The notes under the pieces are model-generated. The model made no database searches. It was not told the DNA's origin and saw only the letters and a list, made by a program, of their open reading frames with translations. 64,000 nucleotides of DNA from Chloroflexota bacterium (lineage in GTDB: Bacteria; Chloroflexota; Anaerolineae; Anaerolineales; Anaerolineaceae), in assembly GCA_023381565.1 (NCBI GenBank), contig JAMCRR010000096.1, forward strand, positions 125,942 to 189,941. Direction: 5' to 3'. Below, piece by piece: positions 1 through 5,952 of the stretch; within the stretch, counting starts at the first letter, position 1; the number at the start of each line of letters is the position of its first letter. Position numbers and translations under genes: made by a program.

Positions 1-1027
1 AAGCGGAGGCGCGCCGCTGTGGTGGGACCATCGGTGCAACTGCAGCGGGGATGATGGATTCGTGCACACCCATCCCCAATCCCCATAGAGCTGCCCCGAC
101 CAATGCCGTCCAGAAACCGCCCAGAAATACCAGGGGCGCGAACAGGGCGGCGATAACCGTGAGGGCGATCAAGACCCAAAAGCCGAAACGATCATACAAG
201 CGCCCGAACACGAGGGAACCCGTACCGCTTACTCCCATGGCTACAGCATAAAATACTGGGATGATATCGGTTGATACGATGGATGCCTGGGCAAAATGAT
301 AGGCGATGAGGGGGAAATCTGCAAAGCCTGCCGCGACCAACACTGCGCCAGTGAGATAAAGCCAAAAGACGCGCGGCAAGCCTCGGGCTTGAACGTCTGG
401 CAGGCTGGTTTCCATCTGCTCAGGATGTGGATAGACCCGATTGGCGATCAAGACTAGAGTCAGGTTGATCACTGCAGGAATAGCCAGGGCGGCAAATGCC
501 AGATGAAAGTCGCCGCGTAGCGCCAGAACGGCTGCGACGATGAGAGGCCCCACCAGGGCGCCAAATTGATCCAGAGCCTCATGGACACCGAACGCCCAGC
601 CGTATCCCATCTGTTTGGCAGCATGGGATAGCATCGTATCCCGTGGGGGGTTGCGCGTAGCTTTTCCCACCCGTTCTAGAATGATCAAGACTGCCGCAGC
701 CGGCCAGCTTCCCGTCAAGGCTAGCAGTGGTACAGAGGTCATTTGAAGGAAATAGCCAAAGATGGTGATGGGCCAAAATTTCTGTGTTCGATCTGCAAAT
801 CGCCCCGATACCAGGCGCAGGCCATAACCCAACAACTCCCCCAAGCCGGTGACCACTCCAACAGCAAATGCGCTTGCCTGGAGAGACTCCAGATAAGGCC
901 CCAGAATACTGCGGGAACCTTCATAGGTGAAATCTGCAAAAAAACTCAAGACTCCTATTAATAACACAAACCGGAGGGCAGTATCCCGAATTTTGGGGCC
1001 ATTAACTGCTCCAGAAATCTTATCCAT
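1..1027 (-). CDS. MFS transporter, cut by the left window edge
   Basis: Major facilitator superfamily permease, about 342 residues visible; the C-terminus lies beyond the window. It starts MDKISGAVNGPKIRDTAL and runs into hydrophobic segments. The cytoplasmic loop 2-3 motif appears as GRFADRTQK, followed by ERVGKATRNPPRDTML and GVHEALDQFGALVGP, conserved stretches of a bacterial MFS subgroup of unknown substrate. A second GRLYDRFGF motif marks the second six-helix half. The ATG at 1027 follows a purine-rich AGAGGGG with short spacing. The gene sits directly behind a fluoride riboswitch with an overlapping terminator, so it is probably made when fluoride is high. A fluoride or drug efflux role is inference; MFS members are not established fluoride exporters. 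Family confident, substrate unknown. Confidence 0.88.
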   Translation of the reverse strand, partial: MDKISGAVNGPKIRDTALRFVLLIGVLSFFADFTYEGSRSILGPYLESLQASAFAVGVVTGLGELLGYGLRLVSGRFADRTQKFWPITIFGYFLQMTSVPLLALTGSWPAAAVLIILERVGKATRNPPRDTMLSHAAKQMGYGWAFGVHEALDQFGALVGPLIVAAVLALRGDFHLAFAALAIPAVINLTLVLIANRVYPHPEQMETSLPDVQARGLPRVFWLYLTGAVLVAAGFADFPLIAYHFAQASIVSTDIIPVFYAVAMGVSGTGSLVFGRLYDRFGFWVLIALTVIAALFAPLVFLGGFWTALVGAALWGLGMGVHESIIPAAVAPMVPPQRRASA

Positions 1028-1055: not shown

Positions 1056-1093
1056 AAAAAAACCTCTGCCAGCATGTGTCTTTCTGACAGAGG
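1056..1093 (-). terminator. Riboswitch-controlled intrinsic terminator
   Basis: On the minus strand CCTCTGTCAG (1093-1084) pairs with CTGGCAGAGG (1072-1063), with one mismatch, around an 11-nt loop, followed by seven T (1062-1056). The 5' arm is the 3' end of the fluoride aptamer, so aptamer and terminator are mutually exclusive. Confidence 0.88.
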
Positions 1094-1144
1094 CTATCAG
1101 CCATCTCTGGCGGTTTATGCTATCTTGAGCGAGCCTCATCGCTG
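1084..1144 (-). promoter_or_regulatory. Fluoride riboswitch (crcB motif) ahead of the MFS transporter
   Basis: Read on the minus strand, P1 is AGCGATGAGGCTCGCT (1143 to 1128). Its loop GAGGCT can pair with AGCCTC near the 3' end (in GATAGCCTCTGTCAG), giving the pseudoknot typical of the fluoride aptamer. A short P3 hairpin (GCCA/TGGC) precedes the conserved CTGATAGCC. The layout matches the Thermotoga petrophila fluoride aptamer apart from roughly ten extra bases between P1 and P3. The 3' strand is shared with a terminator, so fluoride binding should permit read-through. A 7-bp hairpin (1144-1158) lies just upstream, between the aptamer and the preceding gene's stop. Confidence 0.88.
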
Positions 1145-1173
1145 GCTAGATTCTAGCCGCTTTCGTAAATTCG

Positions 1174-1686
1174 TCAAGGCAATTGGTCAATATCTGGTTT
1201 CTGTAGAAGATATTGAACTGTTTTTGCCAGGCTCCAAACTGAGACCACAGCCAGGAAGAATATCACCGTAAAGCTGAGCTGTAACCTGATTGTGTAATAC
1301 ATGCCGATAAACAACAGGGAAAATCCGTTTATCATGCCAAGAATCCGGAGATGTTGTTTAACAATTTTCGCCGGGTTTCGTATTTCTTGCACATTAATGC
1401 GCTTATAAAATCGGTTTAGATCCCAGGCCAGCAGTAGAGCCATAGTTCCCAGTAATGTCCACAGGATAGTCTCCCCCAGGATAATGCCCGTTACCCCGCC
1501 GCCGACCAAAACGAACAATGCAACAGGTGACAACCACCATTTTCGCTGGAACATATACACCCAAAATCCACCGAGGATAGCTAAACCAAGCGCTGCAGGC
1601 CAATAACCATTCTGGACAAAGCCAAAAATGATCAGGCCGGAGCCCAGGATGATGCTCGCAATCGTGAGAGAATGGATCAGTTTCAT
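1174..1686 (-). CDS. Multi-spanning membrane protein of the MoxR/DUF58 operon
   Basis: About 170 residues, mostly hydrophobic, with five or six likely membrane segments. Two pack near the N-terminus (IASIILGSGLIIFGFV and WPAALGLAILGGFWVYMF). A basic stretch around NRFYKRINVQEIRNPAKIVKQHLR separates them from two C-terminal spans. I do not recognise a family. The ATG at 1686 overlaps the stop of the DUF58 gene in an ATGA arrangement, which argues against the longer reading from 1773 that would overlap by 91 bases. It is the last gene of the DUF4129-MoxR-DUF58 operon and ends about 30 nt before the fluoride aptamer that precedes the MFS gene. The function is unknown; the context suggests an envelope-associated role. 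Confidence 0.7.
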   Translation of the reverse strand: MKLIHSLTIASIILGSGLIIFGFVQNGYWPAALGLAILGGFWVYMFQRKWWLSPVALFVLVGGGVTGIILGETILWTLLGTMALLLAWDLNRFYKRINVQEIRNPAKIVKQHLRILGMINGFSLLFIGMYYTIRLQLSFTVIFFLAVVSVWSLAKTVQYLLQKPDIDQLP

Positions 1687-2972
1687 ACCGGGCTGATTAT
1701 CCGTTGATATGATTCGGGGATGCGCCACAGGGTCCGATCGATGATCTCCTGGAAAGACCGGTCGATGGGCCAATTAATCACCTGGATACCGGTTCTCTGT
1801 AAATTCTGCAGCAGTAGCCTGCGCTCAATTTGTGCGATTCGGACAGCAAGTTTTCCCTTGACGCTCTCACCCATCGCCTTGGCCTCGTAACTTACCGGGT
1901 CAGGGCTGACAACCATCAATGCATAACCCAACGCACGCAGGCGGGTCAGAACGGGGATGTCCCTCGCAACTAATGGACTAATGAGCACGATTTGGGATCG
2001 GGCGGGGAAGAAGCGTGTGGGCAGATAATCCAACTTTTCAAGGGCATAGTTATGCCCAGGGCTGGCTTCAGCCAGCGTCCGTTGGATGCGTTCGAGCTGT
2101 ACTTTCCCATACCCGGGAAAGATCCGATGAATCGATTCCCCGTATACTAACAATGCCACCCGGTTACCCTGGTTGATGAACGCCGCCGCGAGTGACATGG
2201 CAGCCTGTACCGAGTACTCAAAAAAGGAATCCCAGGGTGTTTCTGGATTGCTCTGTTCGCGTGCGTCTAAGATCAATCCAACCGGCGCGATTCGTTCCAG
2301 CTCGAACTCATTGGTGAACAATTCCTGGTCGTGACGGGCGCTCACCCGCCAGTTAATGCGACGGCGTGGATCCCCTACCTGATATTCGCGCAGGGCGAAA
2401 AAATCTGTACCGGTTCCCCCTTCGCGAGAGGGGACAGGGCCGGCAAAACCGATCGTACGCTGAGGCCGGATCATTGGGCTGCGGATCTTTTGCGCCTGCG
2501 GGAGCACGACTAACCTTCCTTCCGTCTCGAAGGTCCGGGTAAAGGTGAAAATACCGAGAGTATCGCAAGCTGTTACCCGGATTAAAGGAAAGGCATAACT
2601 GCCGCGCTGGCAAGTAATGGTATACGAGAATTCTACCTTCTCTCCATGCTTCAACGATGTGAGCAAACGCGTTTCCCCCTCCACATTCTCAACCCGCCTC
2701 GGCAGCACGTCTTCCACAAGCAGTTCATCCAGGTCATCCCCTTCATTTTTAATAGTCAGATGAACTTCTACCGGCGTCCCGACCGGGCTCTGATGATCAC
2801 TTAATCTGCGCGTGACCCGCAAGTGGATCTCTTCTGGACGGCGCAGCCACCCAACGATTGGATAAAGGCAGAATAAAATCGCCAAAATGATCAGGCTACC
2901 GAGGCGTGTGATCACCCCGAGAATAATCAGGGCAAATGCCAATGCAAATAAAAAAAAGGCTTTCTGGCTCAT
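1683..2972 (-). CDS. DUF58 domain-containing protein
   Basis: 429 residues. The N-terminus has two closely spaced membrane helices (residues about 5-40). A beta-rich region follows (RVTRRLSDHQSPVGTPVEVHL, about 50-150) and then the DUF58 core with its signature DFFALREYQVGDP and RRRINWRVSARH. The C-terminal half resembles a von Willebrand A-like fold with LILDAREQ and QIVLISPL. DUF58 proteins are nearly always encoded next to a MoxR AAA+ ATPase, as here, and such pairs are thought to act in assembly or maturation of membrane or metal-containing complexes. Start and stop overlap the neighbours by 4 bp, so translational coupling is likely. The family is clear; the cellular target is unknown. 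Confidence 0.93.
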   Translation of the reverse strand: MSQKAFFLFALAFALIILGVITRLGSLIILAILFCLYPIVGWLRRPEEIHLRVTRRLSDHQSPVGTPVEVHLTIKNEGDDLDELLVEDVLPRRVENVEGETRLLTSLKHGEKVEFSYTITCQRGSYAFPLIRVTACDTLGIFTFTRTFETEGRLVVLPQAQKIRSPMIRPQRTIGFAGPVPSREGGTGTDFFALREYQVGDPRRRINWRVSARHDQELFTNEFELERIAPVGLILDAREQSNPETPWDSFFEYSVQAAMSLAAAFINQGNRVALLVYGESIHRIFPGYGKVQLERIQRTLAEASPGHNYALEKLDYLPTRFFPARSQIVLISPLVARDIPVLTRLRALGYALMVVSPDPVSYEAKAMGESVKGKLAVRIAQIERRLLLQNLQRTGIQVINWPIDRSFQEIIDRTLWRIPESYQRIISPV

Positions 2973-3928
2973 TTCACGACTGGAACTGGGATTGATTCCA
3001 ACACGTCATTAATGATATCCCCTGCTGCCCGGCGATCTGTCCATAGATCAGGGATTAAAACCAGGCGGTGAGCCAAAGAAGGTTTGGCAAACCGTTTAAC
3101 ATCGTCCGGTAAGACATAGCTGCGGTGGTTCATAACCGCCCAGGATCGAGCCAGTTTGAGCAATGCCAGGGTTCCCCGAGGGCTTGCCCCGACGGCAACT
3201 TTACGATGTTTTCGCGTGGCACTCACCAGGTTGACGATGTATGCCTCAATATCCGGGTCTACATAGACATCCTCAACCGCCTCACGCATTGCGAGAAGGT
3301 CGCTCACGGTTATGATGGGCTTGAGGTCGAACGCATCCTGGCGGCGCTCTCGTCTTTGGTGAAGGATTTCTTGCTCATCTTCAGGGGAGGGGTAGCCGAC
3401 AGAAAGCTTCATGATGAACCGGTCTAATTGCGCTTCGGGAAGGGGAAAGGTTCCTTCGTATTCGATTGGATTTTGGGTGGCGATAACGATGAACGGTTCT
3501 GGCAATTTCATCGTCTCCCCTTCTAAAGTCACCTGATGTTCCTGCATGGCTTCTAAGAGAGCTGATTGAGTTCGTGGGGAGGCGCGATTGATCTCGTCTG
3601 CCAATACAATGTTCGCAAAGATAGGGCCTTTCCGAAGTGAGAATTGGGCAGTGTTTCGGTCGAATATGTAGCCTCCGGTAATATCTCCCGGAAGCAGGTC
3701 GGGTGTAAATTGGATACGCTTGAAGGTGAGGCCTAGAACGGTGGCAAAGCAGTTCGCGATCAGTGTTTTGGCCAAACCAGGATAATCTTCCAGGAGGGCA
3801 TTCCCTCCACTGGTTAAAAATACTGACATCAACATATGCAACACTTCGGATTTGCCGATGATGGCGTGTTCTACTTCCGAAATGATCTTATCGGTGAGAT
3901 CGGCGACTTCAAGGGTTTGAACGGGCAT
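2969..3928 (-). CDS. MoxR-family AAA+ ATPase
   Basis: 319 residues. The Walker A region reads LLEDYPGLAKT, the variant usual in MoxR proteins. Walker B is VLADEINRASPRTQ, the sensor region is IATQNPIEYEGTFPLPEAQLDRF, and the C-terminal lid contains RKHRKVAVGASPRGTLALL. MoxR ATPases are chaperone-like and work with DUF58 and VWA proteins on complex assembly; here the DUF58 gene follows with a 4-bp overlap. The ATG at 3928 has GGAG seven bases upstream and overlaps the preceding gene by 20 bp. Length and motifs are complete. The DUF4129 gene upstream is a common third partner of MoxR/DUF58. Confidence 0.95.
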   Translation of the reverse strand: MPVQTLEVADLTDKIISEVEHAIIGKSEVLHMLMSVFLTSGGNALLEDYPGLAKTLIANCFATVLGLTFKRIQFTPDLLPGDITGGYIFDRNTAQFSLRKGPIFANIVLADEINRASPRTQSALLEAMQEHQVTLEGETMKLPEPFIVIATQNPIEYEGTFPLPEAQLDRFIMKLSVGYPSPEDEQEILHQRRERRQDAFDLKPIITVSDLLAMREAVEDVYVDPDIEAYIVNLVSATRKHRKVAVGASPRGTLALLKLARSWAVMNHRSYVLPDDVKRFAKPSLAHRLVLIPDLWTDRRAAGDIINDVLESIPVPVVK

Positions 3929-4619
3929 GATCTATCTCCATTTGATCTTCAAGATACTCAATTAATGCAACCCAATCTTGGGGAATAGACCCCGCAAGCT
4001 CTTTGCCCGGCTCAGGGCGTCCATTTTGCAGTATTCTAAATCTATGTACAATGCGCATGAATCGGTTTTTGAGTGATCCAAATGATGGATTATCCAGTGA
4101 GTCTTTCGTCTGAAGGAACCTGTAGACAGAGGCTGGGACATCCAATTCGCTTTTCTTCAAGAGGTTTTCAACTTCCGAGGGGGTTATGTGGTATTGATTG
4201 GACAAAACATTGAATAAAAGATTGGCCAGCATCGAATGGACATCGCGATTCAAGTAGTCGACGTGGTTTGCCATGGTAAGTTCCCGAAGCCAATAGATCA
4301 CGCGACCGCCCAGGAATTGCTGTTTACGTTGGATGGGAGGTGGTGTAATCTTCACGTTACGCAGTAAAACACGAAAAGCGAGGATAATCACGATAATAAT
4401 CAGGAAGATCCATATAAGGGACTGACCAAGGCTGTTCAGGACAAGGCTGCCTAGCCATCCCAGATATAAAATGGGAACGACAATCGCGCTGCGAACAAAC
4501 CCTCTGAAGAGGAAGGTGAGAATTAGAGCGATGCCTAAGATAATGCCGGCGATCATCCAATAGGTCGTGTTCTTCCATTTGCTTTCCGGAACGGAGGAGG
4601 TGTCATGATCGGTGTTCAT
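3909..4619 (-). CDS. Unknown membrane protein between DUF4129 and MoxR
   Basis: 236 residues. Three hydrophobic segments occupy about residues 20-90 (WMIAGIILGIALILTFLF, AIVVPILYLGWLGSLVL, SLIWIFLIIIVIILAF). A soluble basic C-terminal part follows, containing an REL..NHVDYLNRDVHSMLANLL stretch. I do not recognise a named domain. In similar clusters this position holds a small membrane protein of unknown role beside MoxR and DUF58. The start overlaps the DUF4129 stop (ATGA) and the 3' end overlaps moxR by 20 bp, so all are likely made from one transcript. The coding call rests on these couplings and on length; the function is not assignable. Confidence 0.8.
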   Translation of the reverse strand: MNTDHDTSSVPESKWKNTTYWMIAGIILGIALILTFLFRGFVRSAIVVPILYLGWLGSLVLNSLGQSLIWIFLIIIVIILAFRVLLRNVKITPPPIQRKQQFLGGRVIYWLRELTMANHVDYLNRDVHSMLANLLFNVLSNQYHITPSEVENLLKKSELDVPASVYRFLQTKDSLDNPSFGSLKNRFMRIVHRFRILQNGRPEPGKELAGSIPQDWVALIEYLEDQMEIDHARSNP

Positions 4620-5551
4620 CCAACACCATCCTTTATCCGGCTTTCCCGTGATTTCAATGCAGGTTGGGTATTTTCAAGCGATCCTGCTCCTGGATTTCGA
4701 CAAGCATCCGCGATAGCAGAAAGACTATCCACAGCCATGAGCTCTTCCGCCTTCCCTAACAATTTTGCCCCATACCGGACCTGCTCGAAAAGATGGGTTA
4801 GCTGCCTGACAGGATCGCCGGGCAAACCTTGTTCAATCAAATTGATTTCGAATTCCTGGGGGGTCATTGCCTGGTCGCGTTCGATATTTCGTTCCTCGCG
4901 GACCACGTTTTCCATCGCATAATAGCAGTGCAGGACTGCATTTTCTGTGTCGGCCCCTTCTTGTAAACTGTGCAGCGCAATTTCAGCCTGTTGCGCTATC
5001 CTGTCCAGCACGGTTGGTGCTTGTCTCTGCCGCTGGATCTTCTGAGAAAGAAGTATGATTAAAAATGTAATCAGTATTGCCAGAAGAACGATTGCCACGA
5101 GGTCAACCCAGGGAGGTGGGTTGGCAACGAAAGAAGAGACCGGGATGGCCGTTAAGACTTGCGGCGGGGGTTGTGTTTCTAGAGGGGTGGGGGTAGTTGC
5201 AAGGGGAGGACGGTTATTTGGTGAAATCAGGAGGAGAATGCCGAACAAGATCGCCAGGGCAAGCAAATCCGCAAAGAGACGTTTCCTTCCCTCGCTCGAG
5301 AGCAAATGGATGACGAGGTAGACAACGAGGAGCACGATCATCCCGCTGAAAAAGCCTCGGATGATCGCCACTAAATCAATCCCGCTGGTGATCTCACCGT
5401 TGTTTCCCGCAATGGCAGGGGGTGGATTACCCAATGAGAAGGGTACCCCCGGCAGGAATTTTAGCTGGGAAACGCTGAGCGCCAGGATGAGCAAGCCGAT
5501 CAGACTCAATCCCAAATAAACCAACGCCTGAACTCTCTTGAACCGATTCAA
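4616..5551 (-). CDS. DUF4129 domain-containing membrane protein
   Basis: 311 residues. Helices occur near residues 10-30, 60-85, 95-110 and 150-170 (LVAIVLLAILITFLIILL). The C-terminal soluble region carries the DUF4129 pattern: CYYAMENVVREE, then TPQEFEINLIEQGLP and LTHLFEQVRYG. DUF4129 proteins accompany MoxR-DUF58 pairs and sometimes transglutaminase-like proteins. The start is a TTG with AGGGTG about six bases upstream; no ATG fits better. It is the first large gene of the five-gene minus-strand operon and begins 65 bp after a small ORF that lies behind a fluoride riboswitch, so the whole operon may be under fluoride attenuation. Confidence 0.87.
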   Translation of the reverse strand: MNRFKRVQALVYLGLSLIGLLILALSVSQLKFLPGVPFSLGNPPPAIAGNNGEITSGIDLVAIIRGFFSGMIVLLVVYLVIHLLSSEGRKRLFADLLALAILFGILLLISPNNRPPLATTPTPLETQPPPQVLTAIPVSSFVANPPPWVDLVAIVLLAILITFLIILLSQKIQRQRQAPTVLDRIAQQAEIALHSLQEGADTENAVLHCYYAMENVVREERNIERDQAMTPQEFEINLIEQGLPGDPVRQLTHLFEQVRYGAKLLGKAEELMAVDSLSAIADACRNPGAGSLENTQPALKSRESRIKDGVG

Positions 5552-5855: not shown

Positions 5856-5896
5856 AGAAGAAAAGCTTCTACTGACACATTCCATCAGTAGAAGCT
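5856..5896 (-). terminator. Riboswitch-controlled intrinsic terminator
   Basis: On the minus strand AGCTTCTACTGA (5896-5885) and TCAGTAGAAGCT (5875-5864) form a perfect 12-bp stem with a 9-nt loop, followed by TTTTCTTCT. The 5' arm is the 3' end of the fluoride aptamer, so ligand binding should block the terminator. Confidence 0.92.
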
Positions 5897-5934
5897 ATCA
5901 ATCGCATTCACGATTTAGGCGAGCTTCATCGCCT
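5885..5934 (-). promoter_or_regulatory. Fluoride riboswitch (crcB motif)
   Basis: On the minus strand P1 is AGGCGATGAAGCTCGCCT (5934-5917). Its loop GAAGCT pairs with AGCTTC in GATAGCTTCTACTGA to form the pseudoknot. P3 is AATCG/CGATT around TGAATG. This is close to the T. petrophila fluoride aptamer, base for base in the conserved positions. Compared with the copy at 1084-1144, the pseudoknot changes from GAGGCT/AGCCTC to GAAGCT/AGCTTC, a compensatory change that supports a functional RNA. A -10 element lies about 20 bp upstream. Confidence 0.93.
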
Positions 5935-5952
5935 ATCTTTATCGCAATAATG

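Follow-up and report, generated by a model that had tools for sequence, protein, structure and literature searches.

A fluoride riboswitch ahead of an MFS transporter gene whose family recurs in fluoride-resistance loci

The Riboswitch and the First Gene behind It

The stretch of DNA analysed here, called the window in the following, comprises 64,000 nucleotides from an Anaerolineaceae bacterium of the phylum Chloroflexota. At its left end a fluoride riboswitch precedes an operon which starts with the gene of an MFS transporter and leaves the window on that side.

1-1027, minus strand: MFS transporter, first gene of the operon (start at 1027; 342 of 403 amino acids inside the window; whole gene at 5758-6969 of L004, on the same contig)
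1056-1095, minus strand: intrinsic terminator, hairpin at 1063-1095 followed by seven U at 1056-1062 (folding)
1081-1152, minus strand: fluoride riboswitch aptamer, RF01734 (cmscan with Rfam, covariation)
1090-1095, minus strand: 3' strand of the pseudoknot, AGCCUC, common to the 5' arm of the terminator
1132-1137, minus strand: 5' strand of the pseudoknot, GAGGCU (alignment and covariation)
1140-1143/1128-1131, minus strand: stem P1
1150-1177, minus strand: promoter-like site, sigma-70-like, TTGACG-16-TAGAAT (10 of 12 consensus positions)

A fluoride riboswitch with a pseudoknot and an overlapping terminator had been proposed for this site, and the Rfam covariance model bore this out. The match of RF01734 at 1081-1152 on the minus strand spans the whole model and scores 34.7 bits (E = 7e-6 for the 64-kb window), just above the gathering score of 34 bits. 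The originally proposed span of 1056-1144 agrees with aptamer plus terminator, the Rfam span beginning eight bases farther upstream. The P1-P3 linker exceeds the Rfam consensus by nine bases, and the low score is probably due to this. A lineage model (R1) built from 30 aligned aptamers of the same taxonomic family, Anaerolineaceae, yielded 54.5 bits (E = 2e-13), a value reached partly by construction as the window aptamer itself belongs to these 30. In the aligned aptamers, pairing is seen in 95.4% of the cells of P1, P3, and pseudoknot, and in 67 cells both partners have changed. The covariation score is 0.495 as compared to at most 0.14 in a control with the partner slid. The conserved positions, P1, P3, and the six pairs of the pseudoknot (1132-1137/1090-1095) are all intact in the window.

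The terminator hairpin takes up the 3' strand of the pseudoknot, and this expression platform is thus exclusive with the pseudoknot. Nothing was listed at 1056-1095 by a simple terminator scan because it takes loops of 3-8 bases and the loop of this hairpin has 11; the hairpin is revealed by folding. The promoter-like site would put the RNA start at the 5' end of the aptamer; as 0.5 such sites are expected per shuffle, it is weak alone. As a switch it is an ordinary representative of a known riboswitch class, and from what is established for this class it is taken to be an ON switch, where fluoride locks the pseudoknot and blocks termination. Judged from its sequence, the window aptamer should bind fluoride and switch transcription.

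The protein encoded by the first gene matches Pfam MFS_1 (E = 4e-25, 88.8 bits, cut-off 33.4) and neither the Fluc/CrcB profile (PF02537) nor the CLC profile (PF00654). With the H+ antiporter subfamily TIGR00900 (2A0121) of NCBIfam it scores 25.8 bits, below the cut-off of 319.6. The operon, mostly outside the window, runs from the MFS gene over a gene for a 193-amino-acid protein (L004 5202-5783, minus strand) and an enolase gene, in overlapping reading frames, to a gene for a zinc-ribbon/HEAT protein (L004 3440-3856, minus strand). The 193-amino-acid protein (cluster c1) belongs to a family of 150-190 amino acids without a clear Pfam match; proteins of this family and zinc-ribbon/HEAT proteins recur in fluoride operons of Anaerolineaceae. 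The original prediction had stressed that the switch is followed by an MFS permease and not by crcB or a CLC-F gene. The first gene is indeed an MFS gene, but "not crcB" overstates the oddity, as enolase and other classical fluoride genes are found in the operon and around it.

An AlphaFold model of a relative with 81% identity (pLDDT 93.2) is an MFS protein of the 12-helix type. All top matches of a fold search were MFS proteins, among them OxlT and the monocarboxylate carrier SfMCT (Z 37-38, 12-16% identity), which are tied with many unrelated MFS proteins. Searches of PDB sequences with the MFS protein gave no match. The attempt to read the substrate from structure was therefore given up, the fold searches reflecting the general MFS fold with tied top rows. 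The family has invariant charged residues within its helices and, in helix 5, an invariant pattern G156-x3-G160-P161, which we take to resemble antiporter motif C of MFS exporters. Both features would fit a proton-coupled exporter and are not diagnostic of one.

Further Riboswitches and Exporter Genes in the Source Genome

Besides the switch originally proposed, the source genome has three more fluoride riboswitches, four in all. Two of the three share the contig with it, no further than 6 kb away, and one of these two is inside the window.

5882-5942, minus strand: second fluoride riboswitch, again overlapped by a terminator (Rfam 32.5 bits, R1 50.1 bits)
1174-5551, minus strand: genes between both riboswitches of the window (open reading frames and Pfam), namely
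4616-5551, minus strand: DUF4129 protein
3909-4619, minus strand: 236-amino-acid protein
2969-3928, minus strand: MoxR ATPase
1683-2972, minus strand: DUF58 protein
1174-1773, minus strand: 199-amino-acid open reading frame
L004 1381-1440 (contig C59, 121380-121439), plus strand: third fluoride riboswitch, 5.6 kb further on and beyond the operon (R1 31.6 bits)

The second riboswitch precedes a reading frame of 73 amino acids and then the DUF4129, MoxR, and DUF58 genes, which reach down to the first riboswitch. In a genome of another Chloroflexota family (G261) a riboswitch at L233 10800-10861 is followed by MoxR, DUF58, and DUF4129 genes and then by this MFS gene. Possibly the MoxR-DUF58 unit is a new system under fluoride control. 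The third riboswitch faces a DUF6062 gene and a gene for a phosphoglycerate-mutase-like protein, and DUF6062 genes come after riboswitches in several relatives. The fourth lies on another contig (C154, 4.1 kb; locus L005) next to a second enolase, present as a fragment, and homologues of the 193-amino-acid and HEAT proteins; this contig is either a paralogous locus or an assembly contamination.

In the source genome no gene for CrcB (PF02537) and none for CLC (PF00654) was found by searches which, applied to 14 control genomes, detected CrcB in 10 and CLC in 12. As the assembly is a draft of 93% completeness in 204 contigs, this absence is not final.

The MFS Family in Anaerolineaceae and the Phylum

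Among 147 genomes of the family Anaerolineaceae, 12 have relatives of the MFS protein with at least 42% identity. The riboswitch is located directly 5' of the MFS gene in three of them (G005, G112, and G113). In G014 it is followed by a protein of the 193-amino-acid type, HEAT, and MFS, in G007 a HEAT protein is the gene called between riboswitch and MFS, and in G012 the riboswitch match is weak (18.5 bits). Other riboswitches in these MFS-bearing genomes precede enolase, MutS-like pairs, and CrcB. Of the riboswitch-bearing genomes of the family, 40 are without the MFS gene, and 32 of these have CrcB; of the 8 with the MFS gene, which represent six genera, one has CrcB (p = 6e-4).

For the phylum a sample of 350 Chloroflexota genomes was used, 60 of which have the MFS gene and 103 a riboswitch; the association tests in this sample carry no correction for shared ancestry. 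Both elements occur together in 38 of the 350 genomes (odds ratio 6.0, p = 1.7e-9), and in 22 of the 60 MFS-bearing genomes no riboswitch was detected. Eight further cases of a riboswitch directly ahead of the MFS gene were found. The MFS gene is also positively associated with CrcB (odds ratio 2.4, p = 0.003), and CrcB often adjoins it, the order being riboswitch, CrcB, MFS in G303 and G464. A cultured example is a plasmid of Chroococcidiopsis PCC 7203 with the order riboswitch, crcB, DUF190, MFS. The idea that MFS replaces CrcB as a general rule was rejected due to this positive association and adjacency; it holds in the riboswitch-bearing genomes of Anaerolineaceae.

Ten Chloroflexota genomes, including the source genome, contain riboswitch and MFS gene but neither CrcB nor CLC (G000, G014, G033, G036, G112, G113, G227, G333, G350, and G455). 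One of them, G350, is a single contig. In G033, G036, G333, and G455 riboswitch and MFS gene lie apart, so these four support co-occurrence and not direct control.

The MFS Family across Phyla

For a wider view 80 loci were selected by the MFS protein alone (54-81% identity), with one genome per species from many phyla. Riboswitches were detected with R1 in 49 of the 80, in 14 directly ahead of the MFS gene, three of these scoring just 14-17 bits, and in 35 elsewhere in the flanks; upon collapsing two duplicate or near-identical pairs the count is 47 of 78. The loci contain 111 matches of at least 20 bits per Mb, whereas the phylum sample of 350 genomes yielded, under stricter filters, at least about 150 matches in some 1.4 billion bases. 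Among the matches listed, and with filters which differ, this is a several hundredfold contrast, to be read as approximate.

The neighbours in these loci, where clusters outside the Pfam scans are named from representative sequences and plasmid annotation, are a MutS-like pair, enolase, a dynamin-like GTPase, CrcB, DUF190, pyrophosphatase (PPase), formate-hydrogenlyase-like subunits, a Na+/H+ antiporter, UspA, and phosphoglycerate mutase (PGAM), which is the classical fluoride gene set. Several loci without a riboswitch nonetheless contain classical fluoride genes. Cultured carriers of the MFS gene include Labrys and Mesorhizobium composti besides Chroococcidiopsis PCC 7203. In a tree of 100 MFS proteins those with a riboswitch group together (21 changes of the label as compared to 33 when shuffled). 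The tree places the family in Acidobacteriota, Actinomycetota, Bacillota, Bacteroidota, Chloroflexota, Myxococcota, Nitrospirota, Planctomycetota, Pseudomonadota, and Verrucomicrobiota, where single phylum placements may be wrong because many genomes are metagenome bins. More distant relatives, with 35-39% identity (genus g10, G100) or less than 32%, were left outside the family, as no riboswitch was near in 18 such loci with 1.5-kb flanks. Across phyla the MFS family keeps recurring in fluoride-resistance loci, and its association with them is not local chance.

Some of these loci have features of their own. The dynamin-like GTPase, of about 570 amino acids and with a weakly DUF6062-like C-terminus, is found at L133 8960-10696 (minus strand) and in 20 other MFS loci; it recurs across phyla in fluoride loci, several times right behind a riboswitch. 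Four loci (L145, L155, L231, and L232) have arrays of four to nine fluoride riboswitches in 9 to 20 kb, with divergent pairs among them. A plasmid of Rhodococcus qingshengii (NZ_CP054209.1, L242) contains MFS, eno, two crcB, UspA genes, MFS, PAP2, and a histidine phosphatase adjoining TniB/TniQ/Mu-type transposition genes, which suggests that this fluoride island is mobile.

Proposed Mechanism and Alternatives

When fluoride is absent, the terminator hairpin would form and break the pseudoknot. When it is present, as a Mg-fluoride complex, the pseudoknot would lock and the terminator be blocked, so that the genes for MFS, 193-amino-acid protein, enolase, and HEAT protein would then be transcribed. 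The MFS protein would most likely clear fluoride from the cell, by F-/H+ antiport or by efflux of HF/F-. It would act alongside CrcB in many bacteria and replace CrcB or CLC-F in some, the source organism included. We hold the entire explanation, with a fluoride ON switch and an MFS family which is a standard component of fluoride resistance and exports fluoride, to be about as probable as its opposite (roughly 0.5). The aptamer, the overlap with the terminator, the operon, the recurrent association, and the absence of CrcB and CLC from the assembly are observed; the fluoride response as well as substrate and direction of transport are inferred.

Fluoride export is put first since some of the genomes are devoid of any other known exporter, and the original prediction of a candidate fluoride transporter appears stronger than could be seen from the window, since the source genome and nine others seem to lack both known types. 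An auxiliary role, the main rival, may also apply due to the positive association and frequent adjacency of the MFS gene with CrcB in the phylum at large. The protein may be a fluoride-stress transporter with another cargo, for example protons, weak acids, or divalent cations, or else phosphate or glycolytic intermediates which accumulate when enolase is inhibited. Ancillary functions are encoded in the neighbourhood, namely Na+/H+ antiporter, UspA, PPase, and enolase, and Na+/H+ antiporters are the next commonest riboswitch-linked class after the exporters (PMC11139923). The organic-anion and monocarboxylate carriers OxlT and SfMCT among the best fold matches point the same way, though they are tied with unrelated MFS proteins. 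Such a role would leave the ten genomes with riboswitch and MFS gene devoid of any exporter; we consider it a serious possibility, with the odds somewhat against it.

That the MFS gene is a passenger with an unrelated job, the switch serving enolase and the other downstream genes, is improbable. Enolase, a known fluoride target and riboswitch-controlled gene (PMC11139923, PMC5533749), is in the same operon, but the MFS gene comes first there, and the association recurs across phyla with varied partners and gene orders, including riboswitches directly ahead of MFS alone. A decayed aptamer, or one which no longer responds to fluoride in the source organism, might be suspected from the Rfam score barely above the cut-off and is very improbable: the low score goes with the longer linker, conserved positions, stems, and pseudoknot are preserved, the lineage model scores high, and terminator and promoter-like site are present. 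Returning to fluoride export, the further step of seeing in this family a third class of bacterial fluoride exporters, unrelated to the other two, riboswitch-controlled, found in many phyla, and sole exporter in some genomes devoid of CrcB and CLC-F, is put forward tentatively, as an idea that falls a little short of even odds.

A riboswitch-tagged MFS family that extends over several phyla and is present where Fluc and CLC-F are both missing is a concrete candidate for another exporter type. If the proposal is true, it accounts for the fluoride survival of genomes without CrcB and CLC-F, and it would be relevant to the engineering of organofluorine degradation, which is limited by fluoride toxicity.

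Comparison with Known Systems

To our knowledge no MFS protein has been shown to carry fluoride. Bacteria typically encode one of two fluoride exporter types, Fluc or CLC-F, according to a 2024 review, in which the genes linked to the riboswitch include Na+/H+ antiporters, pyrophosphatase, enolase, and formate hydrogen lyase and from which the term MFS is absent (PMC11139923). In the 2010 paper on the discovery of the riboswitch (PMC2864571) mutS and formate hydrogen lyase are named, together with K+ or Cl- transport. No link between MFS and fluoride was found in the literature covered, outside of which is the full gene list of the 2012 Science paper on fluoride riboswitches (Baker et al.), which may name MFS genes. 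The MFS protein is thus an unusual but recurrent target, not described as a part of fluoride resistance in the literature searched.

MFS anion carriers of the OxlT/SfMCT type have the closest solved folds to the MFS model and differ in being tied with many unrelated MFS proteins and in having no PDB sequence match. With the F-/H+ antiporter CLC-F (PF00654) the MFS protein may share an active, proton-coupled export of fluoride, but fold and family are unrelated and no CLC gene was found in the source genome. Like Fluc/CrcB (PF02537), which elsewhere often adjoins it, it is a membrane protein heading riboswitch-led fluoride operons; it is, however, an unrelated 12-helix protein, and CrcB was not found in the source genome. 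The FRM operon of Enterobacter cloacae (ppaC-uspA-eno-gpmA-crcB; PMC5533749) is likewise riboswitch-led and island-like with enolase and stress genes, but its transporter is CrcB and the published six-gene operon has no MFS gene (PMC5533749). The crcB motif RF01734 itself is matched in sequence, P1, P3, pseudoknot, overlapping terminator, and position ahead of fluoride-stress genes; the window differs in the P1-P3 linker, nine bases longer than the consensus, and in the first gene under control, which is here an MFS transporter.
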